The notes: generated by a model not told the origin, from the sequence alone. Counted from the stretch's first letter, positions 1 through 14,194 are shown. The stretch is 64,000 bases of DNA from Spirochaetaceae bacterium (GCA_020353535.1 CP070696.1:1435048-1499047); one strand, 5' to 3'. Translations and numbers: made by a program.

Positions 1-1
1 C

Positions 2-34
2 TGGCCGCTCACGCGGCTGGGTGGCATCCGCTAG
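2..34 (+). CDS. 3' end of upstream gene, possibly a second signal peptidase I
   Basis: The only frame closing just before lepB reads WPLTRLGGIR and then TAG, and the lepB ATG follows immediately. The downstream signal peptidase itself ends in YWPLSRTLKL, and many type I signal peptidases end in a similar WP-[FL]-[ST]-R motif. I infer that the gene cut by the window edge is a paralogous signal peptidase, giving a tandem pair. Only ten residues are visible, so this rests on one short match. Confidence 0.45.
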   Translation, partial: WPLTRLGGIR

Positions 35-784
35 ATGTATTCGACCTACGAACGTTACAGCTCGGGATTCGCTGCCCGTATGGGCAGGGGTCTTGTACGA
101 AAACTGGTCAAGCTGTTTATAGTCACGCTTTTACTTTATCTCATCATCTCCAGTATGTTCCTGGCGACTTTTCAGGTGGAATCCAGGTCCATGGAACCGC
201 TGCTTAAGCCAAAGGACCGCATCTTCGTTTCCCCCTTGATTTATGGAGCCAGGTTTCTCTTCTTTGCCGCCAAACTTCCCCCGGTACGCGATCCAGAGCG
301 GGGGGATATCGTGGTTATCCGTTCCCCCATGTATAGCCGTCCCGCCTTGCCCGTTTCGATTATCGAACCTCTTGTTCGTTTTTTCTCATTTCAACGGGGC
401 GGCGTGGTCCGGGACGATTCCGGAAGGCGAGTTCCGGCCTACATGATAAAGAGGATCGTGGCGGTGCCCGGGGACACGATTAAAGTCTCTGGATTTACAG
501 CCTACATTCGCCCCGACGGGGGCAGCACCTTCGCTGCTGAGCAGGAGCTGATCCCCCAAACCTATGAGGTATTCATCGGTTCTCTCCCGGAGGGGTGGGC
601 GAAGGAGTTCCCTTTTTCCGGAGAATATCCGGCTGTAACATTGGAAGAGGATCAGTACTTCCTTCTTGGGGACAACCGACAGGGTTCCAGTGACTCCCGA
701 TCCTGGGGACCGGTCACCCGGGATCAGCTTGTGGGCAGAGTGATCTATCGATATTGGCCGTTGTCACGCACCCTCAAACTATAA
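35..784 (+). CDS. lepB: Signal peptidase I
   Basis: Membrane-anchored serine protease that removes signal peptides from exported preproteins; 249 residues. One N-terminal membrane segment (about residues 25-48) is followed by the box B motif SRSMEPLL with the catalytic serine, then MIKRIVAVPGD with the general-base lysine, and box E LGDNRQGSSDSRSWGPV near the C-terminus. About 50 extra residues between the serine and lysine boxes are within family variation. The ATG directly follows the stop of the preceding gene with no strong SD; an internal ATG at 80 is possible but leaves a shorter cytoplasmic tail. The 3' end overlaps the convergent histidine kinase gene by 6 bp. Confidence 0.93.
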   Translation: MYSTYERYSSGFAARMGRGLVRKLVKLFIVTLLLYLIISSMFLATFQVESRSMEPLLKPKDRIFVSPLIYGARFLFFAAKLPPVRDPERGDIVVIRSPMYSRPALPVSIIEPLVRFFSFQRGGVVRDDSGRRVPAYMIKRIVAVPGDTIKVSGFTAYIRPDGGSTFAAEQELIPQTYEVFIGSLPEGWAKEFPFSGEYPAVTLEEDQYFLLGDNRQGSSDSRSWGPVTRDQLVGRVIYRYWPLSRTLKL

Positions 785-3304
785 GCTCGCTTCTGTTTCT
801 ACCGCCTGAAGGTCGCTCTCACTGATATCGCCGCTTTTCAGTAGACCATCGATGAAGGCCTTGATCAGGGTGGGATCAAACTGGCTGCCGCTGTGCTTGA
901 GTAGCTCCCTTGCTGCGGTGACCGGGGAGAGGGCTTTTCGGTAGGGTCGGTCGCTGGTCATGGCATGATATGCATCGGCGATGGCGATGAGCCGGGCATA
1001 GAGCGGTATTTCCTTGCCCTTCAAACCGTTTGGATAACCCGTGCCGTCGAAATGTTCCTGGTGAGCCAGCACGATTCGACTCACCTCTTTGTACGACTCA
1101 TGATTACCCAACAGGTTCGCCCCGAGCTCGGAATGCGTCTTCATAACAGTCCATTCCTCCTCCGACAGTCCGGATTCTTTCAGTAAAATCCGGTCCGGGA
1201 TGCCCAGCTTCCCGATATCGTGGAGTAGAAGGGAATCCCGTAGAACCTGATCCACCTCCAGACCGATCTCATCGGCTATCATCGTGCCTAAGGCAAGCAC
1301 ATCCCGCGAATGCCCTGCGGTCTTGAAATCCCGCATTTCGAGGGACTGGGAGAAGCTCATGCTCAGCTCCTCCATGCGCATCTTTAATTCTTCTGTGTGG
1401 GCGAGGGCGAGTTGAAACTTCCGCATGGTAAGGAGGTTCTTGATGCGGGCATCCAACTCCCGAATGTTAACAGGTTTGGACAGGTAGTCGTCTGCTCCTG
1501 TTTTCAGCCCTTGAATTTTAGAATCCAGTTCGTGCTTGGCGGTGATGAGAATAACCGGGATATGCATGGTATTCTCATCTGATTTCACCTTGCTCACCAA
1601 CTCGAAACCGTCCATGCGAGGCATCATTACATCGGAGACGATAATATCCGGTTGCTCATTGCGTACGCGGTGCCAGCCGTCCAGTCCATCCTCGGCGGTA
1701 ATCACGCCATGCCCGAAGCGTGTGAGCATCTTGCTGATGTAGTTGCACAGGTCCGCATTGTCTTCCACTAGCAGTACCACGTCGCTCGCTGTCTGTACGT
1801 CCGTTTTGCTTTCCAACTCCTCCGCAGGCTCTAGAGGGTACAACTCCTTCTCGATCAAGGCCAGATCGTCCAGCGAAACCTTGGCTAGATCCGCTTTTCT
1901 GCGGTCTTCAATTCTGCGCTCCTGGCCCTTGAACGTGAGGCTCAGCTTGCGTCGTTCATCCATTCTGCGTTCGATGAAGGCGTCAGGTACGATTTTGTCG
2001 AGATTGTCCGGAAATTGCATAACGAAGTGGGTTCCCTTGCCCTCTTCGCTGAACACCTCGATCGATCCTTTCATCAGGTCAATCGCTTCCTTGACGATGG
2101 TCAAGCCCAGACCGGTACCCTCATATCTCCTGGTACTCGAGGTATCCACCTGTTGGAATCTCTTGAATATATGAGGTAGATGGTCCTTCGGAATGCCGAT
2201 GCCAGTGTCTTCTACTTCGATTACTATAGATCCTTGTTTTTTGCCCGTGCGTATGGTTACTGAGCCGCTTTCAGTGAATTTTATGGCGTTGCGCAGCAGA
2301 TTCATGAGAATCCGCTCAAGCTTGTCAATATCGAGATAGAGAGGTCGGATGTTGTTCTCTCGCACATACCTGAGATTTATCCCTTTTCGTTCCGTGACAT
2401 CCTCGAATACCGCTATGATATCCCGTATCGTCTCATCCAGATCCACCGGTCCGAGGCGCAGTTCCATCTTGCTGGCTTCGAATTTGGAAAAGTCGAGCAT
2501 CTGGTTGATCATATCCAGAAGTTTCAGGCTGTTTCTGTACATCTGGCTTATCAGCCTTGCTTGTTCCGGCATCAATTCGCCCATATCACCCTGATAGAGA
2601 CTCTGAATCGGACTGATCACGGAAGTCAGCGGGGTACGAACCTCGTGACTCACATTCGCGAAGAACTGGGATTTGAGAATATCCAGTTTCTTCAATTCTT
2701 CGTTGGCCTCGGCCAGGCTCTGCCGGGCGCTGAACTCCCGAAATCGTATCTGAGTGCCGAGATAGGAGCTGAGAATGACCAGTGCGATCGTACACAACAG
2801 AAAAAAGTTGTTGTTCAGTAGAATAGCCAGATCATCGATCGGTTGCCTGAGTAGGATGGGTACGATATAGGCAGCGTAGATGATTGCGCAGATGATGATT
2901 GTTCTCCTGGTATCCAGAGGTAGGATCGAAATGAAGGCCAGCAACACGAGATTGATACCGGCGTAGTAAGGTGAGAGATACCCACCCACCATGTGGACCA
3001 TCACGGTGATAGACAGACCGCAAACAAGGTACTCAATCATTGCGATCTCTCTTGGGAATCGGGCACCAAATCTGGTTCGGATCAATAGATACACAATCAA
3101 ATTTGCGATGACAACCCCGACTCGAATCAGAATGAGTCGAACGAAGTAATCCGGATACAGAGCGAAATCGAGAAGCCCGAAAAGTGAGAATGCGATACTG
3201 GCTACAATAGCAGTGTTTTTTGTGTCACGGATGGCCTTTTCGCAAGTTTCAACAATAAACTGCTTTTGGAGTTGTTCATGTAACGAACGGTTTCTATCGG
3301 TCAT
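779..3304 (-). CDS. Membrane hybrid histidine kinase with REC and HD-GYP output
   Basis: 841-residue signalling protein and last gene of the five-gene cassette. Residues ~30-185 hold about six hydrophobic segments (membrane sensor). A HisKA domain follows with SHEVRTPLT (phosphoacceptor H220), then an ATPase with N box NLLRNAIKFT, G1 VEDTGIGIP and G2 GTGLGLTI. A basic linker leads to a receiver domain with VSDVMMP (D558) and K610. The C-terminus is an HD-GYP domain: H665, HDIGK (695-699), HQEHFDGTGYP (748-758). HD-GYP domains hydrolyse c-di-GMP, so the inferred role is a membrane signal lowering c-di-GMP through phosphorylation. The second His of the usual HHE is Gln here. It follows the radical SAM gene by 34 bp and is probably co-transcribed. 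Family calls are firm; the ligand is unknown. Confidence 0.93.
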   Translation of the reverse strand: MTDRNRSLHEQLQKQFIVETCEKAIRDTKNTAIVASIAFSLFGLLDFALYPDYFVRLILIRVGVVIANLIVYLLIRTRFGARFPREIAMIEYLVCGLSITVMVHMVGGYLSPYYAGINLVLLAFISILPLDTRRTIIICAIIYAAYIVPILLRQPIDDLAILLNNNFFLLCTIALVILSSYLGTQIRFREFSARQSLAEANEELKKLDILKSQFFANVSHEVRTPLTSVISPIQSLYQGDMGELMPEQARLISQMYRNSLKLLDMINQMLDFSKFEASKMELRLGPVDLDETIRDIIAVFEDVTERKGINLRYVRENNIRPLYLDIDKLERILMNLLRNAIKFTESGSVTIRTGKKQGSIVIEVEDTGIGIPKDHLPHIFKRFQQVDTSSTRRYEGTGLGLTIVKEAIDLMKGSIEVFSEEGKGTHFVMQFPDNLDKIVPDAFIERRMDERRKLSLTFKGQERRIEDRRKADLAKVSLDDLALIEKELYPLEPAEELESKTDVQTASDVVLLVEDNADLCNYISKMLTRFGHGVITAEDGLDGWHRVRNEQPDIIVSDVMMPRMDGFELVSKVKSDENTMHIPVILITAKHELDSKIQGLKTGADDYLSKPVNIRELDARIKNLLTMRKFQLALAHTEELKMRMEELSMSFSQSLEMRDFKTAGHSRDVLALGTMIADEIGLEVDQVLRDSLLLHDIGKLGIPDRILLKESGLSEEEWTVMKTHSELGANLLGNHESYKEVSRIVLAHQEHFDGTGYPNGLKGKEIPLYARLIAIADAYHAMTSDRPYRKALSPVTAARELLKHSGSQFDPTLIKAFIDGLLKSGDISESDLQAVETEASL

Positions 3305-3338
3305 TTTTCATGTCTCTCTACATATGAACTACGTCCGA

Positions 3339-4655
3339 TCATGAAACCAGTTTCTCACAGATTTTCCTGAAGTAGCGGCTCCGCCGGTTGTTGCTATCTT
3401 CGTTATAGACGGCTCGGTAGATTTTCAACAGATTGGTTTCCAGTTGTTCCGGAGCAAAAAAGGGATGGCGAATTACTGCATTCCAAACTGTATACCACTT
3501 CCAATCGTTATGGAGAATCCTGTTTTCTTTTTCCAAGCGCTCTCGCAATCGGCTTCCGGGAAATGGCGTAAGAATAGTTATTTGAGTTCCCAGAAGGTTG
3601 TGATGATTTATAAAGTCGATGGTTTTCCCTATCGTCTGGTCGTTATCGGCATCAAAGCCTATTATGAATGAACCATATACTCCGATGCCGTTGCGTTGAA
3701 TTCTCTCTATGTACTCGCCGTAGCGCCTGAACCTTTTCGCTTTCCACTGGTCCTTATTCAAACTTTGGACGTTACTCTCGAGCACACTTTCCAGTCCGAT
3801 CAACAGAGTGCGGCATCCGCTTGCATGCAGGTTCGCAAGGAATTTTTCAGAGGTCGCGACTTCGATGTCACAAACAGCAAACCAAGAGAAGTTGAGATCT
3901 TTAAATGCTTCGACAAGCGCCTCTGAAAACTTGCGATTGACAAACATATTATCATCGGCGAAACCAATCTGGGCCAGCTGCCAATATTTTTTTACCTCCC
4001 GCACCTCTTCAAGAACCTGGGATACGTTTTTATGTTTGTACCTCTTTCCGTATATGTTGGAGGCCACACAGAACTCACAATCATGTGGGCATCCACGGGT
4101 AGTTTGGATATAGACAACAGGATATTTGTACTTTGCCAACAGATCGTAGCGAGGCAAGGGAGATTTTGTGATATCGACGGCGGGATAGCGCTCCTGGTCG
4201 TATACGCTGCCAGGGAAGCCTTTCATGAAATCATCTACAAAACACGGCCAGGTATATTCCGCCTCCCCTATAAACACCGTATCTGCATGTTTTATAACCT
4301 CATCACTTTTCACCGATGCATGGATACCACCTATCGCAACGTGACACCCACGTCGTCGAAACTCTGCCGAAATTTCATAAGCCCGGTTAGCCTGCTGAGT
4401 CATAGCGGTGATACCAACGATATCATAGGGCTGGTCGAAATCGATTTCCTCTCGGTTTTCGTCGATTACCGTCACCGCGTGTATATCTGGCGTCAAAGCC
4501 GCAATCGTCGGTAAGGCTACTCCGATGCCATTCCAAAAGTGCAGAATGGTCCTCATTTCCCTGGAGGTAGTCACGAATTCGGCAAACTCACGGTTCTTGC
4601 AGAGGAACTCTCCCTTCGGGGAGATGAGGGCTATGTTGAGTTTACCCTTATCCAT
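3339..4655 (-). CDS. B12-binding-domain radical SAM enzyme
   Basis: 438 residues. The N-terminal ~140 residues form a cobalamin-binding-like Rossmann domain (DIVGITAMTQQANRAYEIS, then GCHVAIGGIHAS), without an obvious DxHxxG axial-histidine motif. The radical SAM core follows with TTRGCPHDCEFC, giving C189, C193 and C196 for the [4Fe-4S] cluster, then GFADDNMF, LLIGLESV and GSFIIGFDADND strands typical of the TIM barrel. Relatives include BchE-, HpnP- and HpnJ-like enzymes that methylate or rearrange unactivated carbons. It overlaps the ACP gene by 8 bp, so the substrate could be an ACP-bound acyl chain or a lipid; that is inference from context. The reaction cannot be assigned from sequence alone. 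Confidence 0.9.
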   Translation of the reverse strand: MDKGKLNIALISPKGEFLCKNREFAEFVTTSREMRTILHFWNGIGVALPTIAALTPDIHAVTVIDENREEIDFDQPYDIVGITAMTQQANRAYEISAEFRRRGCHVAIGGIHASVKSDEVIKHADTVFIGEAEYTWPCFVDDFMKGFPGSVYDQERYPAVDITKSPLPRYDLLAKYKYPVVYIQTTRGCPHDCEFCVASNIYGKRYKHKNVSQVLEEVREVKKYWQLAQIGFADDNMFVNRKFSEALVEAFKDLNFSWFAVCDIEVATSEKFLANLHASGCRTLLIGLESVLESNVQSLNKDQWKAKRFRRYGEYIERIQRNGIGVYGSFIIGFDADNDQTIGKTIDFINHHNLLGTQITILTPFPGSRLRERLEKENRILHNDWKWYTVWNAVIRHPFFAPEQLETNLLKIYRAVYNEDSNNRRSRYFRKICEKLVS

Positions 4656-4926
4656 GGGTTTTCCTATAGAGGACCTCGATGAGATTCAAAAAATCAGCGA
4701 CTGTTTCGATATCTGCGAAGGCGGTTTCATCGATTTCTATATCGAGATGCTTTTCACACGTTGCGATGATTTCCATTGCCATTAAGCTGTCTATTCCCAA
4801 TTCCTCACGGATTATGATGTCATCGGCAAACTCCTCCGGGTCGATTCTGGATATGCGAGATACGATCTGTTTTACGCGCTGCCTGATTTCCGCTGAGGTG
4901 ATCTGTTTTGTGCTTTGCGGTTCCAT
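4648..4926 (-). CDS. Acyl carrier protein
   Basis: A small acidic carrier protein of 92 residues from this start. The motif ELGIDSLMAMEII contains the DSL serine that receives 4'-phosphopantetheine, and the flanking helices (RVKQIVSRISRIDPEEF, ETVADFLNLIEVL) match the four-helix ACP fold. I prefer the ATG at 4926 because AGGA lies six bases upstream. Two upstream starts, ATG at 4950 and GTG at 4953, overlap the ligase stop codon and would add 8-9 residues with a poorly spaced SD. It sits between an AMP-ligase homologue and a radical SAM gene, so it is more likely a dedicated pathway carrier than the fatty-acid synthase ACP. No phosphopantetheinyl transferase is nearby. Confidence 0.9.
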   Translation of the reverse strand: MEPQSTKQITSAEIRQRVKQIVSRISRIDPEEFADDIIIREELGIDSLMAMEIIATCEKHLDIEIDETAFADIETVADFLNLIEVLYRKTHG

Positions 4927-4949
4927 CAAAAATCCTGGTGGTTCGAACA

Positions 4950-6356
4950 TCACCCTGGATCGAGCGAGATTTTAGGGATTTTATACGGCGCCAACAACTC
5001 TTTCAAAGAGGTAGCAAGCTCCTTCGTTTTTCCCGGGGTGATTGCCTTCCGGCTTGCACGGCAACGAGCAAACAAGGCATTGTTCTTATAGTGTATATCG
5101 ACTTCAACAATTTGACCATCCAGCAGGATTGCCTTTCTGATCTCATTGAGATCGACCATATTTCCGTTGATTTTTCGTGTTTCCTTCAATTCCTCAGAGA
5201 AAACAAGATGATTCCCATCAAAATATCCGCGATCCCCGGTTTTAAACCAATCGCCATCGAAAGCCTCGCGTGTTTCCCGCTCCCTGTCTAAGTACGTTTT
5301 CGTCATATAGGGTGTATTGAGAAGAATTTCACCCGATCCAATTCCGGTCGAATCGTCAATCCGGCACTCGATCTGGTCGCAGATAGGTCCGATGGTACCA
5401 CCCTTGGGCTCTCCCCGAATGTTTCTGCTGACGGGGGTGCACTCCGTAAGACCATACCCATGAAGGACTTCCACTTCAAAGCCCTGCGATATTTTATGAT
5501 AGTCTTCGACCGTCAACAGACTGCCACCGCATACGAAAGCCCGAAGGGATCTCAATTTTTGAGCTTTTTCTTTAAGACGAAGCAGCAGCAAATAGTAATG
5601 GGGAACAGAAGTGAGATATTCAATAGAATAATCCCTGATTATCTGGAATATGATTCTTGGATGGAACGTTTGGGCAATCACTCCCGTCACGTTATATAGG
5701 ATCGGAACGGCGATACAACCTACAAGTGTGAATATATGAGACATTGGCAATGTGATCAGCATTTTCTCGCCGGGATTGGCTTGAAGACCCTTCTGCAGCG
5801 TTTTGGCACCATGAAGATATTGCCGGTGAGGGACCTCTGCGCCGATGGGATAGCCGTATCCCCTGTAGGTGTAGTTTACCGTGGCGATATCCTCGGACAC
5901 TTCATGTGATTCCCGAGAAGAAATCTGGCTCTGAACAAGCCGAAGACCTGCCGATGATCGTTCAATCACCACGACATCCTTCAGATATGATCTGATAAAT
6001 GGCAGGTGGTTGGTTTCAGTGATAACTGCCTGGGGTTTGCAGTTTTTGAAGATCTCGGCCAATGCGAGTTTTCGGAACTCCAACTTCACCATCACCGGAA
6101 TTGCCTGCAGTTTCATCAGGGCAAGCAGGCTCGTGATAAACTCTACGGAGTTGTACAGGAATATGGGAACCAGGAAGCCCTTCTGAATCCCCCACCGTGC
6201 GAATTGTTCGGTTCTTTCTTGTATGCGCAGTCGGAGTTCCAAGGCGGTGACTGGTACACCCTTGCCGTGGGGACTGCATTCGATGAAACAGGGATTGTTC
6301 TTCCATTCCAGCAACGACGTGTCTATTCGCCCATTTAAGGTCAAGTCAACCGACAA
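4950..6356 (-). CDS. AMP-forming ligase homologue (acyl/ANL superfamily), atypical active site
   Basis: 468 residues of the acyl-CoA synthetase/adenylation superfamily, probably supplying an acyl group to the neighbouring ACP. Recognisable motifs are A5 (GYGLTECTPVSRN) and A7 (FKTGDRGYF). The phosphate-binding A3 loop, normally Ser/Thr/Gly-rich, is replaced by YTYRGYGYPIG at about residues 162-172. The protein also stops at PYKIPKISLDPG, before the usual A10 lysine. Shorter than typical members (500-550 residues), so it may work with altered chemistry. The start is TTG with GGAG seven bases upstream; no in-frame ATG occurs before residue 81. It lies 51 bp after the PilZ fusion gene and is coupled to the ACP by overlapping stop and start codons. 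Confidence 0.85.
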   Translation of the reverse strand: MSVDLTLNGRIDTSLLEWKNNPCFIECSPHGKGVPVTALELRLRIQERTEQFARWGIQKGFLVPIFLYNSVEFITSLLALMKLQAIPVMVKLEFRKLALAEIFKNCKPQAVITETNHLPFIRSYLKDVVVIERSSAGLRLVQSQISSRESHEVSEDIATVNYTYRGYGYPIGAEVPHRQYLHGAKTLQKGLQANPGEKMLITLPMSHIFTLVGCIAVPILYNVTGVIAQTFHPRIIFQIIRDYSIEYLTSVPHYYLLLLRLKEKAQKLRSLRAFVCGGSLLTVEDYHKISQGFEVEVLHGYGLTECTPVSRNIRGEPKGGTIGPICDQIECRIDDSTGIGSGEILLNTPYMTKTYLDRERETREAFDGDWFKTGDRGYFDGNHLVFSEELKETRKINGNMVDLNEIRKAILLDGQIVEVDIHYKNNALFARCRASRKAITPGKTKELATSLKELLAPYKIPKISLDPG

Positions 6357-6407
6357 CGAGGTACTCCGACATATGAGATAACCGTGTATATCGTGAAATA
6401 TATGCTG

Positions 6408-9400
6408 TTACGAACGTCCGCCGGTATTTTCATCGCCCTGTAGAGGTTTTTGGGCAACAAGGACATGTGCCTGGGGCGGATTTCCCAGTGATTGAAATAT
6501 TCTGATGGATTGGAAACCGCAGTTTTCGCATAAGCCGATCAGTTCTTCCGCAGTAAAGAACCTGAAAAATCCTTCCTGTTCGAGCTCAAACAGACTGGCT
6601 GCCTCATTGAGCATATCCGTGGCGGCGAGCCGTTTGTCTGAATTCCTGAAAGCGTTGGGCTGTCCACCAGATTCGTTCAATTTTTCAATATAATTCGTAA
6701 AAATCACAGAGACGTCGCTGTCTGGCTTCATCGATGAAATCAGTGCTGTTCCACCAGGTTCGAGTATTCGGTAGAACTCAGCCACTGCGTATTGAGGATT
6801 GAATAAATAGGACAGGAATAGGCTGGCAACCAGCTTGTTGAAGGAATTGTTCTCAAACGGGTAGAAAAGGGTGAGCCCTTGATTTCCTAAACGCAGTTGA
6901 TCGAAATCAGGTAACGACGTTGTTGTTGAGGTGAGCCCTGTTGGTACAATCCCGCCGCCGCTGCTCAACCTTTGATTCGCCAAACTGAAAAAGCCGAGGT
7001 TCTCACGAAGGAACCGCGCCGCCTTGTTGAACTCCACTATCACATGGTAGCATTCTTGTCCCAATTCATACTTATAATTCAAGGAGGTGGAGGGCAAAGG
7101 TATTTCACCCTTCATGATTGGTAGTAGCTCCTCCCAATCCGAGGCGATCAGCTTATCGATATAGGAGTTTTTCAATCCTTGTATTTTGTTGCGTAGATAG
7201 TTGAAATCGAGTTCGGGATTGCAGACATACTCACAAATAGGTAGCCAGCGGTTTGGTTCCAGGTTCGTGGCAGAATAATTTATATGCACGGAGGCTAGAT
7301 TGGGGTATCGCGCCAGAAGGCGGGTACATTTCATTTTTACTTTTTCTAGTGCTTCAGGCACCAGATCTACCGCCACCAACTCAGCGTGGTCCTCGTGCTG
7401 GAATTGTTTCTTTGCCTCCTTGAGGATTGATTGTAATAGCAATCCTGTACCACATCCCAGATCTATTAACCGGTCTCCTGGTCTGAGATCAATGAGGCGG
7501 GCTTCGAGGTCCATGAACTGGCGAAACTCTGCAAAATTGTCATAAAAATCGTAACCAGGATCCGAGATTTTATTTCCAATTAGGTAGCTTTTCCAGTAGC
7601 TTTCGGCATCGATTCCTTTCTCATTTTGTAGCCGTTCTCGCTCATAGGAAATGAGACGTATCATCTCATCGTGGTTCGGATCCACCGTGTTCATGCTTCT
7701 ATTGTGGAGCCAACGAAAGATACGGGAAGTGATGATTCGATATACCTTGAGCGCATCGTCACTGGTGTGTAAATTGTGCCCGGCGGGAACCTCAATGACT
7801 TCCCTGTTGGAATACGAGTTAATACTCATAATGTCGCTTACTTCCCCCACATCCACCCATTTATCGTATGTACCGTAGATCCATAAGGTGGGAATGGAGA
7901 TCCTCGACATATCTCGACGGGAATCGGTCATGTATGCAAATTTGTTCTCCACAAGACCACGAGCAAGGCTATCCATGTCGATAAGGTGCCCAAGTATACC
8001 CATGATACCGTTGTTGTTACCCATCTTGTAGTTGCCAATAACATCGAGTCCGCCGAGTATTTTCTGAAGAGTGGATTGGGCGGAAGGGACACCCATTGCA
8101 CTGATCCAAAGGTCGATCCCGTGATTTGGCCTTGTAGCCAGATATCGTCGGGCGTCGATCGAGGACATGCTGAAGGATACGAGAATGACCCTCTCCGGCG
8201 TGAACCAAGGGTTGGAGTAAACGTACTCTAGAGTCGTTTCGAGATCATCGATTCCCTGATTGGCCGTATAGTGCAGCATCTCATATCCCCGGCTGACTTT
8301 CTTTGCACAGTTGTAGCTCTCTCCGGGTTTATTAATACCGTCGTAGCGAATGGTAACAATATCTTTGTTTTGCACCGAAAAATTGGCGAGCAAGGTAGCT
8401 ACTAATGGAGCCAATACCTCTTTCTTTTTACCGAATCCGGGGGGCATTATCACGACCGGTGCTTTTACGAAAAAACGAGTCGCGTTGATCAAGGCTCTAA
8501 TGCCCTGTTTATCTCTATTCGTGTACTCTACAACGCGGCACTCGCATCCTGAGGAACGCGCCTTCTCCACATTTTCTGAAGCCCGATCCCATTCGATCTT
8601 TTCAACTTTGCTGAACCGGTAGACGCTGCGTTCAATACCTGCTTCGAGGCCGAGATGTAGAACGATTTTCTGCTCGTGCAGCGCTGATTCCTGTAGACGT
8701 CTAATTTGTCCCTGGGTGCCTAATCCCCAGCGTTCGTCCATCTCATAGCGCACCATCTGCCCGATACAAAACACACCGCGCATACTTACCGGTAGCTCGA
8801 CCTCGCAGAGGAAACCGTTGCGACTGATATCAATCAATCTCCCCTCGCATATCTGTCGAGAGCCGTTTTCAGGATGTGGGTGCAGCAGAACTGTTACACC
8901 AAGATCGGTCGAGAGCACCTTGCGCTGGTGCGACCTTTTCTCGCTTTGGAGCACTACCTGAGGAAGCTTGAAGGCCAGTCTGTTTTTTTGGTTTCTCGCG
9001 ATTGTCGTTTTGAAGTAGTGAGCTCCTCCGTTGGTATATGTGAAATAAGCGGTTAGCCCGGGAACCGGCAGGTCCTGTTTGGTTGATAAAAATACGATCG
9101 CCTCAAACTCCTTTTCCCTCGTGTTTAGGAGTTCGAGTCTGGATTCGTAAATGGCCAGTTGGCCCTCAAGCAATACGTTTAGTACCGTACCATCGTTTAG
9201 CATGTCTTGAAACATTCCCACGATGCGTTCGCGGTTTTTAATACTGTATCCTGCCTCGGTACCGCATTGTATGAAATCGTCACAGAGATATTTTATTGCA
9301 GAGCTTGATGTTGAGGCGACGATGTAGTTACGAATACGTGCCTGGACGGTTTCCTTCGGATCCACAAACCTGAGCCCGGCACTTCGGGGTAGCTGAAATT

Positions 9401-10028
9401 CGTTACGGATCGTGTAGGTAATGTATCCGGATATCTGTATTCTACGTTTGTCTCCCGGCAGGGAGAAGGTCAATTCGATGGGTTCGTCAGGATTTAGATC
9501 ACCTTCGAAGCTGATTAGAAGCCCTTCAGTGGAGATGTTGTCGATGGAGACTATCCGAAGCCCAGACTTGTTTACCGAGATATCCCGAATCGAGCAGTCT
9601 GCACGCGGGATCTGCCGCATCTCGGAGTGATGTGGAGTATCGGCCAACTCCTTTTTCTTCATCTCCCGGATGTAGTTTTCGATGAGCAGAAGTTGGGCCT
9701 CCCCTTGGTAGGAGAACTCCAGGCCCAGGATGTTGGACTGCTCGTTACCATTGCCCGATTCGTAGCGGACGATTCGGCAGGGAAGCTCTAACGTGTGTTC
9801 TGAGTTGGGAAGGGTGAACGTGATCGATCGAACGGATTCGTAGGAATCGGGGAGGTTTACGACCACCTGCATGCCGGTGCGGCTGAGGTTGATTGCCTGC
9901 CCCGAAAATCGCCGGCCCTCGCCGACTAGTTGCACCGTTCCGCTATGTTCGATTCGGATATGCCTACGCTGATCCCGGTTTTCTACATTCTGGGGCTGCG
10001 CGAGATGTAAGCGATCCTCAGAAAACAT
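6408..10028 (-). CDS. Triple-PilZ / LuxD-like hydrolase / SAM methyltransferase fusion
   Basis: A 1206-residue cytoplasmic protein, first gene of the cassette. PilZ-1 has RRHIR (21-25) and NLSRTG (47-52). PilZ-2 has RQIPR (138-142) and NISTEG (164-169). A YcgR-N-like segment (~240-360) precedes PilZ-3 with RSHQR (365-369) and DISRNG (400-405). All three keep both c-di-GMP-binding motifs. Residues ~523-775 are an alpha/beta hydrolase: oxyanion region MPPGFG, nucleophile elbow SFSMS with S620 (as in LuxD-type acyltransferases rather than GxSxG), and plausible acid and base D722 and H751. Residues ~840-1200 are a class I methyltransferase with IDLGCGTG (855-862) and FYRILEPGG, separated by an unusually long insert. 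I infer a c-di-GMP-controlled enzyme releasing and methylating an acyl product. Domain calls are strong, the reaction is not. Confidence 0.88.
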   Translation of the reverse strand: MFSEDRLHLAQPQNVENRDQRRHIRIEHSGTVQLVGEGRRFSGQAINLSRTGMQVVVNLPDSYESVRSITFTLPNSEHTLELPCRIVRYESGNGNEQSNILGLEFSYQGEAQLLLIENYIREMKKKELADTPHHSEMRQIPRADCSIRDISVNKSGLRIVSIDNISTEGLLISFEGDLNPDEPIELTFSLPGDKRRIQISGYITYTIRNEFQLPRSAGLRFVDPKETVQARIRNYIVASTSSSAIKYLCDDFIQCGTEAGYSIKNRERIVGMFQDMLNDGTVLNVLLEGQLAIYESRLELLNTREKEFEAIVFLSTKQDLPVPGLTAYFTYTNGGAHYFKTTIARNQKNRLAFKLPQVVLQSEKRSHQRKVLSTDLGVTVLLHPHPENGSRQICEGRLIDISRNGFLCEVELPVSMRGVFCIGQMVRYEMDERWGLGTQGQIRRLQESALHEQKIVLHLGLEAGIERSVYRFSKVEKIEWDRASENVEKARSSGCECRVVEYTNRDKQGIRALINATRFFVKAPVVIMPPGFGKKKEVLAPLVATLLANFSVQNKDIVTIRYDGINKPGESYNCAKKVSRGYEMLHYTANQGIDDLETTLEYVYSNPWFTPERVILVSFSMSSIDARRYLATRPNHGIDLWISAMGVPSAQSTLQKILGGLDVIGNYKMGNNNGIMGILGHLIDMDSLARGLVENKFAYMTDSRRDMSRISIPTLWIYGTYDKWVDVGEVSDIMSINSYSNREVIEVPAGHNLHTSDDALKVYRIITSRIFRWLHNRSMNTVDPNHDEMIRLISYERERLQNEKGIDAESYWKSYLIGNKISDPGYDFYDNFAEFRQFMDLEARLIDLRPGDRLIDLGCGTGLLLQSILKEAKKQFQHEDHAELVAVDLVPEALEKVKMKCTRLLARYPNLASVHINYSATNLEPNRWLPICEYVCNPELDFNYLRNKIQGLKNSYIDKLIASDWEELLPIMKGEIPLPSTSLNYKYELGQECYHVIVEFNKAARFLRENLGFFSLANQRLSSGGGIVPTGLTSTTTSLPDFDQLRLGNQGLTLFYPFENNSFNKLVASLFLSYLFNPQYAVAEFYRILEPGGTALISSMKPDSDVSVIFTNYIEKLNESGGQPNAFRNSDKRLAATDMLNEAASLFELEQEGFFRFFTAEELIGLCENCGFQSIRIFQSLGNPPQAHVLVAQKPLQGDENTGGRS

Positions 10029-10039
10029 AGCAGTGCAAT

Positions 10040-10067
10040 AGTATCGTTACTAGAAAAAAAATTTCAA
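10040..10067 (-). promoter_or_regulatory. Predicted sigma70-type promoter of the PilZ cassette, near-leaderless
   Basis: On the minus strand TTGAAA (-35), a 16-base spacer rich in T, and GATACT (-10) lie just ahead of the 1206-codon gene. Only 11 bases separate the -10 from the ATG, and no SD is visible, so the transcript would start within a few bases of the start codon. Prediction from consensus only. Confidence 0.5.
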
Positions 10068-10073
10068 TAGTGT

Positions 10074-10108
10074 AAAAAAAAAAGTTACTGTCGGGCTGAG
10101 AGCCCGGA
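10074..10108 (-). terminator. Hairpin with T-tract upstream of the PilZ cassette
   Basis: Read on the minus strand, CGGGCT-CTC-AGCCCG (6 bp stem, 3-base loop) is followed after eight bases by ten T residues. The gap between stem and T-run is longer than in classical terminators. It sits between yebC and the cassette promoter, so it could stop antisense transcripts from the right, or act as an attenuator if a further promoter lies upstream. Confidence 0.35.
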
Positions 10109-10163
10109 TGGAGTCGGAATCCGGAGCTTTACGCGCTCAGACGCATCGGTCAGCCCACTCAGC

Positions 10164-10192
10164 TTGACACCCCAATGAGGGGCGTGTTAAAT
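10164..10192 (+). promoter_or_regulatory. Promoter of the yebC-ruvCAB-queA operon
   Basis: A perfect -35 TTGACA, a 17-base spacer and TTAAAT (-10) precede yebC, with GAAGGAG as ribosome binding site further down. The spacer contains CCCC-AATGA-GGGG, a palindrome that could be an operator. Strong by consensus; the regulator is unknown. Confidence 0.7.
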
Positions 10193-10216
10193 TCACCGAC
10201 GAAGGAGAAATAACCT

Positions 10217-10960
10217 ATGTCTGGCCACAGCAAGTGGGCCTCTATAAAGCATAAAAAGAGCGCCGTGGATGCCAAACGCGGCAAAGTGTTCACGAAAATT
10301 ATCCGGGAAATCAGCGTAGCCGCCCGTGCGGGCGGCGGGGATCCGGATGCCAACCCTAGATTGCGTACAGCCCTTTTAAAAGCGAAATTGTCCAATATGC
10401 CCAAGGACAACATCGACCGAGCCATCAAGAAGGGCACGGGAGAGATGGAAGGAGCCGAGTATTCCGAGCTGACCTACGAAGCCTACGGTCCCGGTGGAGT
10501 GGCGATTCTGGTCGAGGTGCTTACGGATAATCGGAACCGCACCGCTGCAGAACTTCGCCATGTTCTATCCCGAGCTGGGGGGAGCCTGGGGGAGAGTGGC
10601 AGCGTGGCCTACCTGTTCAAGCGCAAGGGCCTGATCGTGTACGATGCTTCGGAGTACTCGGAGGATGCGATCCTCGAAGTCGCTTTGGAAGCGGGAGCCG
10701 AGGACGTGAGTAAAGCGGACGGTGAGATCGAAGTCATCACAGAACCGGATGACTTCGAATCTATCCTGGAAGCGCTGGAGCAGGGCGAGTTCAAGCATCT
10801 GTCGGCGGAGGTTACCATGATCGCCGATGCGCAAGTTGCGGTACCCGAAGACAAGCTCGCGCAGATCCTCCGACTTATAGACACGCTGGAGGACCACGAC
10901 GACGTACAAAATGTCTCCACAAATCTGGATATTCCAGAGGGTTTCACCCTGGATGAATGA
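10217..10960 (+). CDS. yebC: YebC/PmpR-family regulatory protein
   Basis: 247 residues, usual family length, opening with the signature SGHSKWASIKHKKSAVDAKR. YebC proteins are conserved three-domain cytoplasmic factors. They have been called transcription regulators and, more recently, linked to translation of proline stretches (established knowledge, not visible here). The acidic C-terminal third (DTLEDHDDVQNV) is typical. It leads the Holliday-junction operon, overlapping ruvC by ATGA, an arrangement common in many bacteria. The start is ATG with a GAAGGAG site. Confidence 0.96.
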   Translation: MSGHSKWASIKHKKSAVDAKRGKVFTKIIREISVAARAGGGDPDANPRLRTALLKAKLSNMPKDNIDRAIKKGTGEMEGAEYSELTYEAYGPGGVAILVEVLTDNRNRTAAELRHVLSRAGGSLGESGSVAYLFKRKGLIVYDASEYSEDAILEVALEAGAEDVSKADGEIEVITEPDDFESILEALEQGEFKHLSAEVTMIADAQVAVPEDKLAQILRLIDTLEDHDDVQNVSTNLDIPEGFTLDE

Positions 10961-11469
10961 AAGTAATCCTCGGTATTGATCCGGGATTGGCCTCAACGGG
11001 GTATGGTGTCATTCACTGCTCTGGCAGCCGATTCCGCTGCATAACCCACGGCACCGTCCGAACATCTCCTAAAGAGGGAATGGGCGAGCGGCTGGTGAAG
11101 ATTCATCAGGGCATCATGGATATCATCACCACCTACGATCCTGAAGAAGCAGGCATCGAGACCGTATATTTTTCAAAGAACTCGAGAAGCGCTATTCCGG
11201 TTGCTCAGGCCAGGGGGGTGGTGCTTTACACCCTGGCTACCCGGGGTGTGCCTTTCGCCGAATACACGCCCCTGGAGCTCAAGCAGGCTGTTGTGGGTAA
11301 TGGGCGGGCGGAAAAGATTCAGGTACAAAAAGTGCTCAAGATGATCTTCAACCTCAAGGAGCTGCCAGCCCCGGATCATGCTGCCGACGCTCTGGCCGCA
11401 GCCTTTTGTCATGCCAATTTCTCGGGTTTTCGAAGTCATCTCACAGATTCGGGGACCAGACATGTTTAA
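10957..11469 (+). CDS. ruvC: Holliday junction endonuclease RuvC
   Basis: 170 residues, standard for the family. RuvC cuts four-way junctions after RuvAB branch migration. Acidic active-site residues are visible: the Asp in ILGIDPG (D8), the Glu in GIETVYF, and the Asp pair in DHAADALAAAFCH near the C-terminus. The ATG overlaps the yebC stop by four bases, and the 3' end overlaps ruvA by eight bases, indicating tight translational coupling. Confidence 0.96.
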   Translation: MKVILGIDPGLASTGYGVIHCSGSRFRCITHGTVRTSPKEGMGERLVKIHQGIMDIITTYDPEEAGIETVYFSKNSRSAIPVAQARGVVLYTLATRGVPFAEYTPLELKQAVVGNGRAEKIQVQKVLKMIFNLKELPAPDHAADALAAAFCHANFSGFRSHLTDSGTRHV

Positions 11470-12124
11470 CAGCCTCAGCGGTGAGATTACCTACAAGGAC
11501 GAAGAGCGCATCTTTCTCTCAAGCGGTGCGATCGAGTGGGAGATCTTCGTCAGTCGGAGCAGCAGCGACGATCTTCCGGAGGAAGGGCAAAATACCAAGG
11601 TATTTGTGTATTTGTACCATCGGGACGATCAGGTTCGTTTGTACGGATTTTCTCAAAGCTTGGAACGGGATGTTTTCCTGGATCTACTCAAGGTCGAGGG
11701 TGTAGGCCCCAGACAGGCGCTGAGAATCCTCTCCGGAGTGGAGGTAAGCCGTTTCATCGAAGCCCTGGAGGGGGAGGATCTGGAGCTCCTGTCGACTATT
11801 CCCGGAGTCGGTAAAAAAACTGCCCAGAAAATCATGCTGAAACTCAAGGGTAAGTTGCAAGTGTCCACGCCCGCGGGGATATCCCTTGAAGAGGATATCG
11901 TCAATGCCCTGGTAGGCATGGGATTCGACCGACGTGGAGCCAAAAGCGCCGTAGGTGCTGCGGCCCGCGGTCTTCGGGATAGTGAGCTTAACGCCGAAGA
12001 GCTGGAGCGGGAGCTGTTCAAGAATGCCCTATCCCAGCTCTCAGGGGGTTCCCAAGCCCCCGCCGGCGCGGCTGAGACCGGTTCTTCGAGGGCGAGTGAA
12101 CCGCGCGCCGGAGGGGCGTCGTGA
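11462..12124 (+). CDS. ruvA: Holliday junction DNA-binding subunit RuvA
   Basis: 220 residues from the ATG beginning [14 protein letters not shown]. An upstream extension that remains open within ruvC is not plausible for this family. The OB-fold domain is followed by paired helix-hairpin-helix motifs ([15 protein letters not shown] and [15 protein letters not shown]) and a C-terminal RuvB-contact domain ([21 protein letters not shown]). RuvA tetramers clamp the junction and load RuvB. The Ala/Gly/Ser-rich last ~20 residues are a non-conserved tail. The end overlaps the ruvB GTG start. Confidence 0.96.
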
Positions 12125-13146
12125 AGGATAACAGGGTCACTGCGGGAACCTTTCATCCCGAACAAGATCAGGAGGAGTACACCCTGCGTCCCCGAAAGCT
12201 CAAGGAGTTCTTGGGTCAGATGCGCCTGAAGGAAAACCTGGCGGTGTTCATCCAGGCCGCCAAACAGCGGCAGGAGAGCCTGGATCACGTGTTTTTCTCC
12301 GGTCCTCCAGGTCTGGGGAAAACGACCCTGGCCGGAATCATCGCCAATGAACTGGGGGTGCAGTTTCGAGCCACCTCGGCTCCCGCGCTGGAAAGGCCCG
12401 GTGATTTAGCAGCCATCCTGACAACGATCGGTGAAAACAACGTTTTTTTCATCGACGAGATCCACCGCTTGCGCCCTATCATAGAAGAAATGCTCTACAA
12501 TGCCATGGAGGACTTCGAAATCGACGTGGTGATGGGGCAGGGTCCCGGTGCCAGAACCATCAAGATCCCACTGCCTCCCTTTACCCTTGTGGGCGCCACG
12601 ACAAAGACCGGTCTGGTATCCGGTCCCCTGTACTCCCGCTTCGGCATCACTTCCCGTTTGGATTTCTACACGGATGAGGATATCGAAAGCATCATCCATC
12701 GCTCCGCGGGAATTCTCACCATAAAGCTCGAGGAGGCTGCATGTACCATGATAGCCTCGCGTTCTCGGGGAACCCCCAGGGTCGCCAACCGCCTGCTGCG
12801 CCGTATGCGCGATTTCGCCCAGGTGTGGGCGGACGGATTGGTCACCGCTGAGATCGTCATGCGCGGGATGAGCTCCCTGGACATCGATTCGCTCGGCTTG
12901 GACAAACTGGATCGGGATATTCTGAAAACTGTCATCGAAAATTACAAAGGAGGGCCGGTGGGCTCGGAAACCCTGGCGATATCCATCGGCGAAGCCGTGG
13001 ACACCTTAGAGGATGTCTATGAGCCTTATTTGATTCAGAAGGGACTTATACAGAGAACACCAAGAGGAAGAACGGCTACGCACCTGGCCTACGAGCATTT
13101 GGATCTCAAACAGCGGGAAAGTGAAGACCAGCAGCTTCTCTTATGA
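12121..13146 (+). CDS. ruvB: Holliday junction branch-migration ATPase RuvB
   Basis: 341-residue AAA+ motor. It shows Walker [11 protein letters not shown], Walker [10 protein letters not shown], sensor 1 LVGATTKTG and the arginine-finger segment YSRFGI, then a winged-helix C-terminal domain ([16 protein letters not shown]). The start is GTG within the ruvA stop (GTGA overlap). The reading frame runs 26 bp into queA, so the two are coupled. Confidence 0.97.
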
Positions 13147-14194
13147 TCTTCCCGAAGAGTCGATCGCCCAGCAACCGAGCCCCAAGAGGGGCGGCAGCCG
13201 GTTGATGGTGGTCAATCGGGACAATCGGCAAATTATCCACAGCCGCATCGATCAGCTGTCCACCTACCTGGAAAGCGGCACCGTGATGGTGCTGAATAAA
13301 ACCCGGGTGATCAATGCCCGCATTTATGGCACGTCTGTGGACAGCGGAGCGCGGGTGGAATTCTTGCTTCTCAGCGAGCTCCAACCGGGATTGTGGAGAA
13401 CATTGGCCGCCAAAGCCAGAAAACAGCTGCCGGGTAAGTGTTTTAAGTTTCCCGCAGGTATCAAAGCCCAGATCGTAGCCGAATCGGATCTGGAGACCGA
13501 ACAACAGAGTGATCGCTCCGGATTCCCCGCAGATGAAGGCTTTCGGTATCTGCGTTTCACTCCCCCGATCGACATCGACTATTTGGAAACCCATGGGCAT
13601 GTGCCGCTGCCCCCCTATATTCGCCGCAAGGACACACAGCTGGATTCCGAACGCTACCAGACGGTGTATGCGGAGGATCCGGGTTCCGCGGCTGCCCCGA
13701 CGGCGGGACTGCACCTGACCAGGGAACTGCTGGAAGGGCTGGGACAAAACGGCGTGATTCCTGTCAAACTCACCCTTCACGTGGGCGCCGGCACCTTTCT
13801 GCCGATTCGTGCCGAGAAGATCGAAGAGCACAAAATGCACGAGGAGAGCTACCACATCCCGCCGGAAACCGCAGAACTGATCAATTCGGCAATGAAGGAG
13901 GGTAGAGCGATTCTGGCTGTTGGTACCACCGTGGTTAGGGCTCTGGAATCCGCCTACGACCCAGATCGTCCCGGGGTAGCCGCAGGATCCCGGCGAACTT
14001 CCCTGTTTATCTATCCGGGGTATCACTTTAAAGTCGTCTCTCAACTGCTAACCAATTTCCACACACCCCGATCAAGCCTTCTGGTGTTGGTGTCCGCCTT
14101 TGCCGGCAGGGAGCGAATTTGGGAGGCTTATGAATCCGCTGTCCGGGAGGGCTACCGCTTCTTCTCCTACGGAGACGCTATGCTGATCCGTTGA
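13121..14194 (+). CDS. queA: tRNA preQ1(34) S-adenosylmethionine ribosyltransferase-isomerase
   Basis: 357 residues. QueA transfers the ribosyl moiety of SAM to 7-aminomethyl-7-deazaguanine in tRNA, making epoxyqueuosine. Family hallmarks are the N-terminal [41 protein letters not shown] and the C-terminal [17 protein letters not shown]. It starts at GTG inside ruvB. The partner enzyme tgt lies about 35 kb away in this window, so both queuosine steps are represented. Last gene of the yebC operon; no convincing terminator follows. Confidence 0.95.

Follow-up and report, generated by a model that had tools for sequence, protein, structure and literature searches.

Introduction

In the Phc system of Ralstonia (PhcB-PhcS-PhcR/Q, with the signals 3-OH PAME/MAME), the gene for a SAM methyltransferase lies beside that for a kinase with a six-transmembrane (6TM) sensor domain. 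PhcB and PhcS in Ralstonia group by signal type, independently of the phylogeny of the strains (PMC11960443). Responses to CAI-1 or to fatty acids are described for 6TM domains of the adenylyl cyclase/CqsS class (PMC4821796, PMC12414865, PMC11606603). The Rpf/DSF system (RpfF-RpfC-RpfG) likewise follows a fatty-acid signal logic. Control of catalysis by a c-di-GMP receptor is seen in BcsA, which has one PilZ domain on a glycosyltransferase, and in MapZ-CheR1, where MapZ acts on a methyltransferase.

The locus described here lies in a window of 64,000 nucleotides (GCA_020353535.1 CP070696.1:1435048-1499047) from the genome of a Spirochaetaceae bacterium, which is a single contig of 4.84 Mb. Its first gene encodes P3HM, a protein with three PilZ domains, a LuxD-like alpha/beta hydrolase and a class I methyltransferase. 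To our knowledge, no cell-cell signal has been established for the uncultured spirochaetes that have the P3HM operon.

The P3HM protein

The P3HM gene is on the minus strand at positions 6408 to 10028 and encodes 1206 amino acids, with an ATG start and zero internal stops. A sequence-only reading of the window had reported three intact PilZ domains fused to a hydrolase and a methyltransferase on one chain. All six motif halves are at exactly the residues given there, and the ORF is both intact and conserved. PilZ is found by Pfam as three stretches (E=1e-25). PilZ domain 1 (aa 18-125; 9654 to 9977, minus strand) has RRHIR at 21-25 and NLSRTG at 47-52, matching RxxxR and NxSxxG. PilZ domain 2 (aa 133-240; 9309 to 9632, minus) has RQIPR at 138-142 and NISTEG at 164-169, again RxxxR and NxSxxG, and PilZ domain 3 (aa 360-482; 8583 to 8951, minus) has RSHQR at 365-369 and, as its DxSxxG, DISRNG at 400-405. 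The segment before PilZ domain 3 (aa 241-358; 8955 to 9308, minus), which had been called YcgR-N-like, is beta-rich in the predicted model and is possibly PilZN/YcgR-N-like; the match by hhalign, made to a two-part PilZ protein of the same genome, is weak (probability 50%, 179 columns).

The homologue alignment has 27 rows, one of them a duplicate, and so represents 26 distinct homologues. Both motifs of PilZ1 and PilZ3 are present in all rows that cover them, as is the RxxxR of PilZ2. The [DN]xSxxG of PilZ2 is kept in 23 of 26, with Q for D/N in two and T for S in one. This retention is more than chance would be expected to leave, and from it the PilZ domains are predicted to be c-di-GMP receptors. 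All of the support for the earlier proposal of three functional receptors comes from this motif conservation, and c-di-GMP binding stays a prediction. Cooperative or threshold sensing, also suggested there, is speculation. Three copies are inessential, because the homologues in Desulfobacterota manage with two, or with more divergent ones.

The drift of the PilZ2 motif in three of the homologues and the variable number of PilZ copies would fit domains that are scaffolds or bind some other ligand, leaving the enzyme outside c-di-GMP control. This is very unlikely, given that no covered copy of PilZ1 or PilZ3 has lost either motif and that the constant neighbour of the protein is an intact c-di-GMP phosphodiesterase.

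The alpha/beta hydrolase (aa 495-775; 7704 to 8546, minus) is weakly named by Pfam (Acyl_transf_2, E=0.0037, under the cut-off). It has the LuxD/Acyl_transf_2 fold in the AlphaFold2 model of P3HM (27-row alignment, pLDDT 76) and a putative Ser-Asp-His triad, S620-D722-H751, which is invariant among the homologues. The nucleophile elbow is FSMS or FSMA, so that S620 rather than S622 is the putative nucleophile. Other conserved motifs are PPxFGKKKE and RYDGINRPGES. The alpha/beta hydrolase fold is common to many esterases. The LuxD myristoyl-ACP thioesterase 1THT matches with Z 25.1 (268 of 293 residues aligned, TM 0.76), a score tied with those of other alpha/beta hydrolases, many esterases among them. 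The curated LuxD models score below their cut-offs (PF02273, 17.0 against 20.3 bits; NF052253, 17.1 against 420). A bioluminescence operon of LuxCDE type was considered and rejected, as the cassette is without LuxC or luciferase.

The methyltransferase (aa 800-1196; 6441 to 7631, minus) has an invariant DxGCGTG at 856-862, and the best match of methyltransferase families in Pfam to the C-terminal part has E=1.8e-9. In the predicted model it contains a partly helical insert of about 145 amino acids (aa ~906-1050), which is absent from the distant homologue L079.

Distribution

Full-length homologues of P3HM, at 35-46% identity, are found across uncultured Spirochaetota, and versions with two PilZ domains occur in Desulfobacterota. 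The gene is present in all 7 genomes of the host family (one or two of these are fragmentary, at contig ends) and in 6 of 392 genomes sampled from the phylum, these 6 belonging to more than one class. A scan of GTDB contigs gave 35 loci, nearly all from uncultured spirochaetes; two of the records carry the label Desulfobacterota. Whole-genome searches added the two-PilZ version in the large-contig Desulfobacterota-class genomes G531 and G593, and two distant homologues, L078 and L079. PilZ1 is absent from L041, L080 and L081. In a Desulfobacula MAG (L040) it is in a separate frame, at 9995-10435 with the remainder at 10408-13536, through a frameshift or an assembly error.

Hydrolase-methyltransferase relatives free of PilZ were not found when a profile that included the two most distant homologues was run on 291 genomes of the Desulfobacterota class and 392 of the phylum. 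A tblastn search of a plasmid collection found no homologue of P3HM or of the sensor described below. Many independent assemblies contain full-length homologues without interruption, which rules out a gene split by sequencing error, and on the same grounds an assembly or frameshift artefact or a chimera was rejected. The architecture, noted as unusual in the sequence-only reading, is conserved among the homologues and undescribed within the literature searched: no paper on a PilZ-hydrolase-methyltransferase architecture was found in the open-licence literature, and two papers there on spirochaete PilZ proteins contain no mention of a methyltransferase or hydrolase.

The operon

Although the boundaries of the P3HM gene had been placed correctly, the functional unit is larger, spanning 779 to 10028, and the operon context had been overlooked. 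It is these neighbours that suggest a likely function for the P3HM gene. Five minus-strand genes follow in the order P3HM, ligase-like protein, acyl carrier protein (ACP), B12 radical SAM enzyme and 6TM-HisKA-HATPase-REC-HD-GYP, with gaps of 51, -4, -8 and 34 bases. The AMP-binding ligase-like protein (468 aa; 4950 to 6356, minus) has the altered P-loop YTYRGYGYPxGA and ends right after YKIPK. The ACP (4648 to 4953, minus; start codon uncertain) has the phosphopantetheine site LGIDSL. The B12-binding radical SAM enzyme (438 aa; 3339 to 4655, minus) has HpnJ as its nearest named model, far under the cut-off. The last protein (841 aa; 779 to 3304, minus) has an intact phospho-acceptor His and intact HD and GYP motifs, and the HD-GYP catalytic motifs are intact in all complete copies of the family. 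No RNA element reached the gathering score in positions 1-14000, and promoter and terminator scans gave signals that were not above shuffles.

The synteny is constant. Among the 35 loci, the ligase-like gene is 3' of P3HM in all 25 contigs that extend far enough, and in the 19 that reach further the ACP and the kinase-HD-GYP are always present. The radical SAM gene is found in 14 of these 19, leaving five cassettes without it. The cassette partners are also retained in Desulfobacterota, where in L080 and L081 the kinase and REC-HD-GYP are separate genes, an RpfC/RpfG-like arrangement. In L078 the PilZ-hydrolase-methyltransferase protein is directly paired with a 6TM-HK-REC-HD-GYP protein, and ligase, ACP and radical SAM genes were not found nearby.

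The usual P-loop sequence (YTYRGYGYPLGA) is gone throughout the family of the ligase-like protein, whose C terminus stops before the expected A10 lysine, so that the usual catalytic segment is missing. It is doubtful that it adenylates, and its role is therefore drawn only loosely here. The homologue family (alignment A3), with its rewritten P-loop and no A10 lysine, is possibly one of non-adenylating acyl-handling proteins.

The 6TM sensor

The sensor domain (aa 15-200; 2705 to 3262, minus) is PhcS-type by sequence and has the fold of an adenylyl-cyclase-type membrane domain. Kinase residues 1-215 are modelled as a 6TM bundle (pLDDT 95), the six-helix membrane fold of the adenylyl cyclase/CqsS class. 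The membrane domains of AC9, AC5, AC8 and ImcA match it with Z 13-16, the next unrelated structure with 8.9; ImcA is a diguanylate cyclase. The CqsS structure is not among the structure-match lists, which says nothing either way. No Pfam or NCBIfam name for the domain was significant.

A kinase in a Paraburkholderia plasmid operon has a sensor homologous to this one (96.9 bits, hhalign 98.9%), with no match from 20 shuffles or two other membrane proteins used as controls. That operon has the order methyltransferase, kinase, response regulator, response regulator, and is phcBSRQ-like by this order. The phospho-acceptor His of its kinase is at 233, against 230 reported for PhcS. A Pseudanabaena kinase that adjoins a methyltransferase matches with 69 bits. 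When the sensor profile was searched through the phylum, the best six matches, at 253-315 bits, came from the six genomes with P3HM and were their cassette kinases, several of them already within the profile; the next match had 145 bits. In the source genome the cassette kinase is the only match.

Related arrangements occur elsewhere. In three other spirochaete loci (L096 769-3518, L105 727-3560, L108 763-3529), the 6TM sensor is fused to a SpoIIE-type phosphatase directly 3' of a gene for a methyltransferase of about 460 aa, similar to that of the phcBSRQ-like Paraburkholderia operon; these may be Phc-like systems whose output is a phosphatase. Another pairing of a methyltransferase, a related one, with c-di-GMP is seen on rhizobial plasmids, where its gene is divergent from an EAL or GGDEF-phosphodiesterase gene (L115 1457-4921, L116 1664-4873, L117 1809-5092). 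A 399-aa protein with a PilZ-like start (L092 1-1198, minus) adjoins a methyl-accepting chemotaxis protein with a 6TM sensor domain of this same type.

Co-evolution and exchange within the cassette

Mantel and partial Mantel tests on 18 complete cassettes show three blocks: PilZ-hydrolase-methyltransferase-ligase (r 0.82-0.91), ACP-radical SAM-sensor (r 0.69-0.80) and kinase-REC (r 0.80). A first test of the sensor against the ligase, hydrolase and methyltransferase was negative, and given the kinase the sensor does not track the ligase, hydrolase, methyltransferase or PilZ (partial r 0.02-0.09). It does track the radical SAM enzyme (partial r 0.75, p 2e-4) and the ACP (partial r 0.57, p 2e-4) given the kinase, in tests that were suggested by the data, having been chosen after a pair of genomes showed a swapped block. 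Given the sensor, no tracking of the radical SAM enzyme by the kinase is left (-0.03).

The pair is L080 and L081, both Desulfobacterota-class. These are about 95-98% identical over the flanks, P3HM, ligase, kinase and HD-GYP, whereas the ACP is 44%, the radical SAM enzyme 51% and the sensor 29% identical; the remainder of the kinase is 97%, and for kinase and synthase together the figure is about 97-98%. The breakpoint is at the sensor/kinase junction, where identity steps from ~30% to 88-100%. A milder step is present at the same junction between the window and its congener L057. The swap is the pattern that would be expected if the sensor perceives the product of the tailoring enzyme. ACP, radical SAM enzyme and sensor may co-vary by recombination alone, since they are usually adjacent and moved in one event. 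The breakpoint at the end of the sensor argues for function, without proving it. The pair is also a natural experiment on receptor specificity.

These results bear on how the kinase is wired. An HD-GYP protein beside a PilZ enzyme is a simple control layout, in which the kinase could sense an unrelated external cue and lower c-di-GMP near the enzyme, with no sensing of the product; the synthase core and the sensor indeed show no correlation when the kinase is controlled for. The tracking of the tailoring enzyme and ACP by the sensor, and its homology to a methyltransferase-paired kinase, make this quite unlikely.

A regulated membrane lipid is the main rival. Here the product would be a structural or protective lipid under c-di-GMP control, and the 6TM kinase would sense the state of the membrane or the build-up of the lipid in the same cell, tuning c-di-GMP to demand. 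The genes of the operon and its lipid-type sensor also fit this reading, and ordinary fatty acids elicit a response from adenylyl cyclase membrane domains (PMC11606603). The nearest model to the radical SAM enzyme is hopanoid-type, and a sensor that monitors a lipid product would also be expected to co-evolve with the radical SAM enzyme and ACP. However, a clean swap of tailoring genes plus sensor between near-identical genomes resembles a switch of signal type and is harder to account for with a structural lipid, and neither a phospholipid acyltransferase nor a glycosyltransferase was found among the operon genes. A self-monitored lipid pathway is therefore improbable, although less so than the external cue.

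The proposed circuit

The best explanation of the operon, and one given a little better than an even chance, is that its genes specify both a synthase, gated by c-di-GMP, that makes an acyl-derived signal and the receptor for that signal. An acyl chain would be supplied by the ACP and ligase-like protein, and the hydrolase would remove it from the ACP via S620. The methyltransferase would methylate the acyl product, a methyl ester as in the Phc signals being the simplest guess, and the radical SAM enzyme would alter its structure. Binding of c-di-GMP to the PilZ domains would turn synthesis on or off. The product would then bind the 6TM sensor and change the activity of the HD-GYP domain, and with it c-di-GMP, closing a feedback loop. 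The product would be fatty and probably hormone-like, and the putative step of its leaving the cell is assumed.

Constant synteny, the ACP site, the thioesterase-like fold, sensor homology, co-evolution, the block swap and the intact HD-GYP favour this signal. Against it are the five cassettes without the radical SAM enzyme, a ligase-like protein that may not adenylate, and the lack of co-variation of the sensor with the hydrolase, methyltransferase and ligase. That the operon represents a new class of quorum sensing, with a PilZ-gated autoinducer synthase, a receptor that is a c-di-GMP phosphodiesterase, and a chemotype switched by exchange of ACP, radical SAM enzyme and sensor, is given somewhat less than an even chance. 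If so, second-messenger and signal-molecule control would be united in one protein, allowing a direct test of whether c-di-GMP gates signal synthesis allosterically, and a new product derived from an acyl chain, in whose making a radical SAM enzyme takes part, is predicted. The natural sensor swap could reveal ligands of 6TM receptor domains, a fold common to mammalian adenylyl cyclases.

Comparison with known systems

The hydrolase fold, the triad and an RYD-type motif are common to LuxD (with LuxC/E) and P3HM, and both have an AMP-binding protein as neighbour. Unlike LuxD, the P3HM hydrolase is under the curated cut-offs and is fused to PilZ and a methyltransferase, and the cassette has no LuxC reductase. 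Compared with BcsA, three PilZ domains rather than one are present, on a hydrolase-methyltransferase chain. MapZ and the chemotaxis methyltransferase on which it acts are separate proteins, whereas the PilZ domains of P3HM are fused to the enzyme they are proposed to control.

Like Phc, the operon pairs a SAM methyltransferase with a neighbouring kinase whose 6TM sensor is homologous, and fatty-acid-derived chemistry is proposed for it too; the comparison was made with the Paraburkholderia operon of phcBSRQ order, not with the Ralstonia sequence. The methyltransferase is not PhcB-type, its match to a PhcB-like profile (77% hhalign probability, 61 columns) being that of a generic class I methyltransferase, and it shares its chain with PilZ and a hydrolase. 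A degenerate PilZ at the N terminus of PhcB was unsupported by hhalign. REC-HD-GYP takes the place of PhcR/PhcQ-PhcA as the output, and ACP, ligase-like and radical SAM genes are added.

With Rpf/DSF the operon shares a hybrid kinase and REC-HD-GYP, separate in Desulfobacterota and fused in spirochaetes, and the fatty-acid logic proposed here. No crotonase-type synthase such as RpfF is among the cassette proteins scanned, the proposed synthase carries PilZ, and the likeness of the sensor rests on other families. The circuit thus resembles both Phc and Rpf and is filed in neither, because a PhcB-type methyltransferase and an RpfF synthase are absent. It is best read as a form of lipid quorum sensing in which the c-di-GMP feedback is of unusual design.
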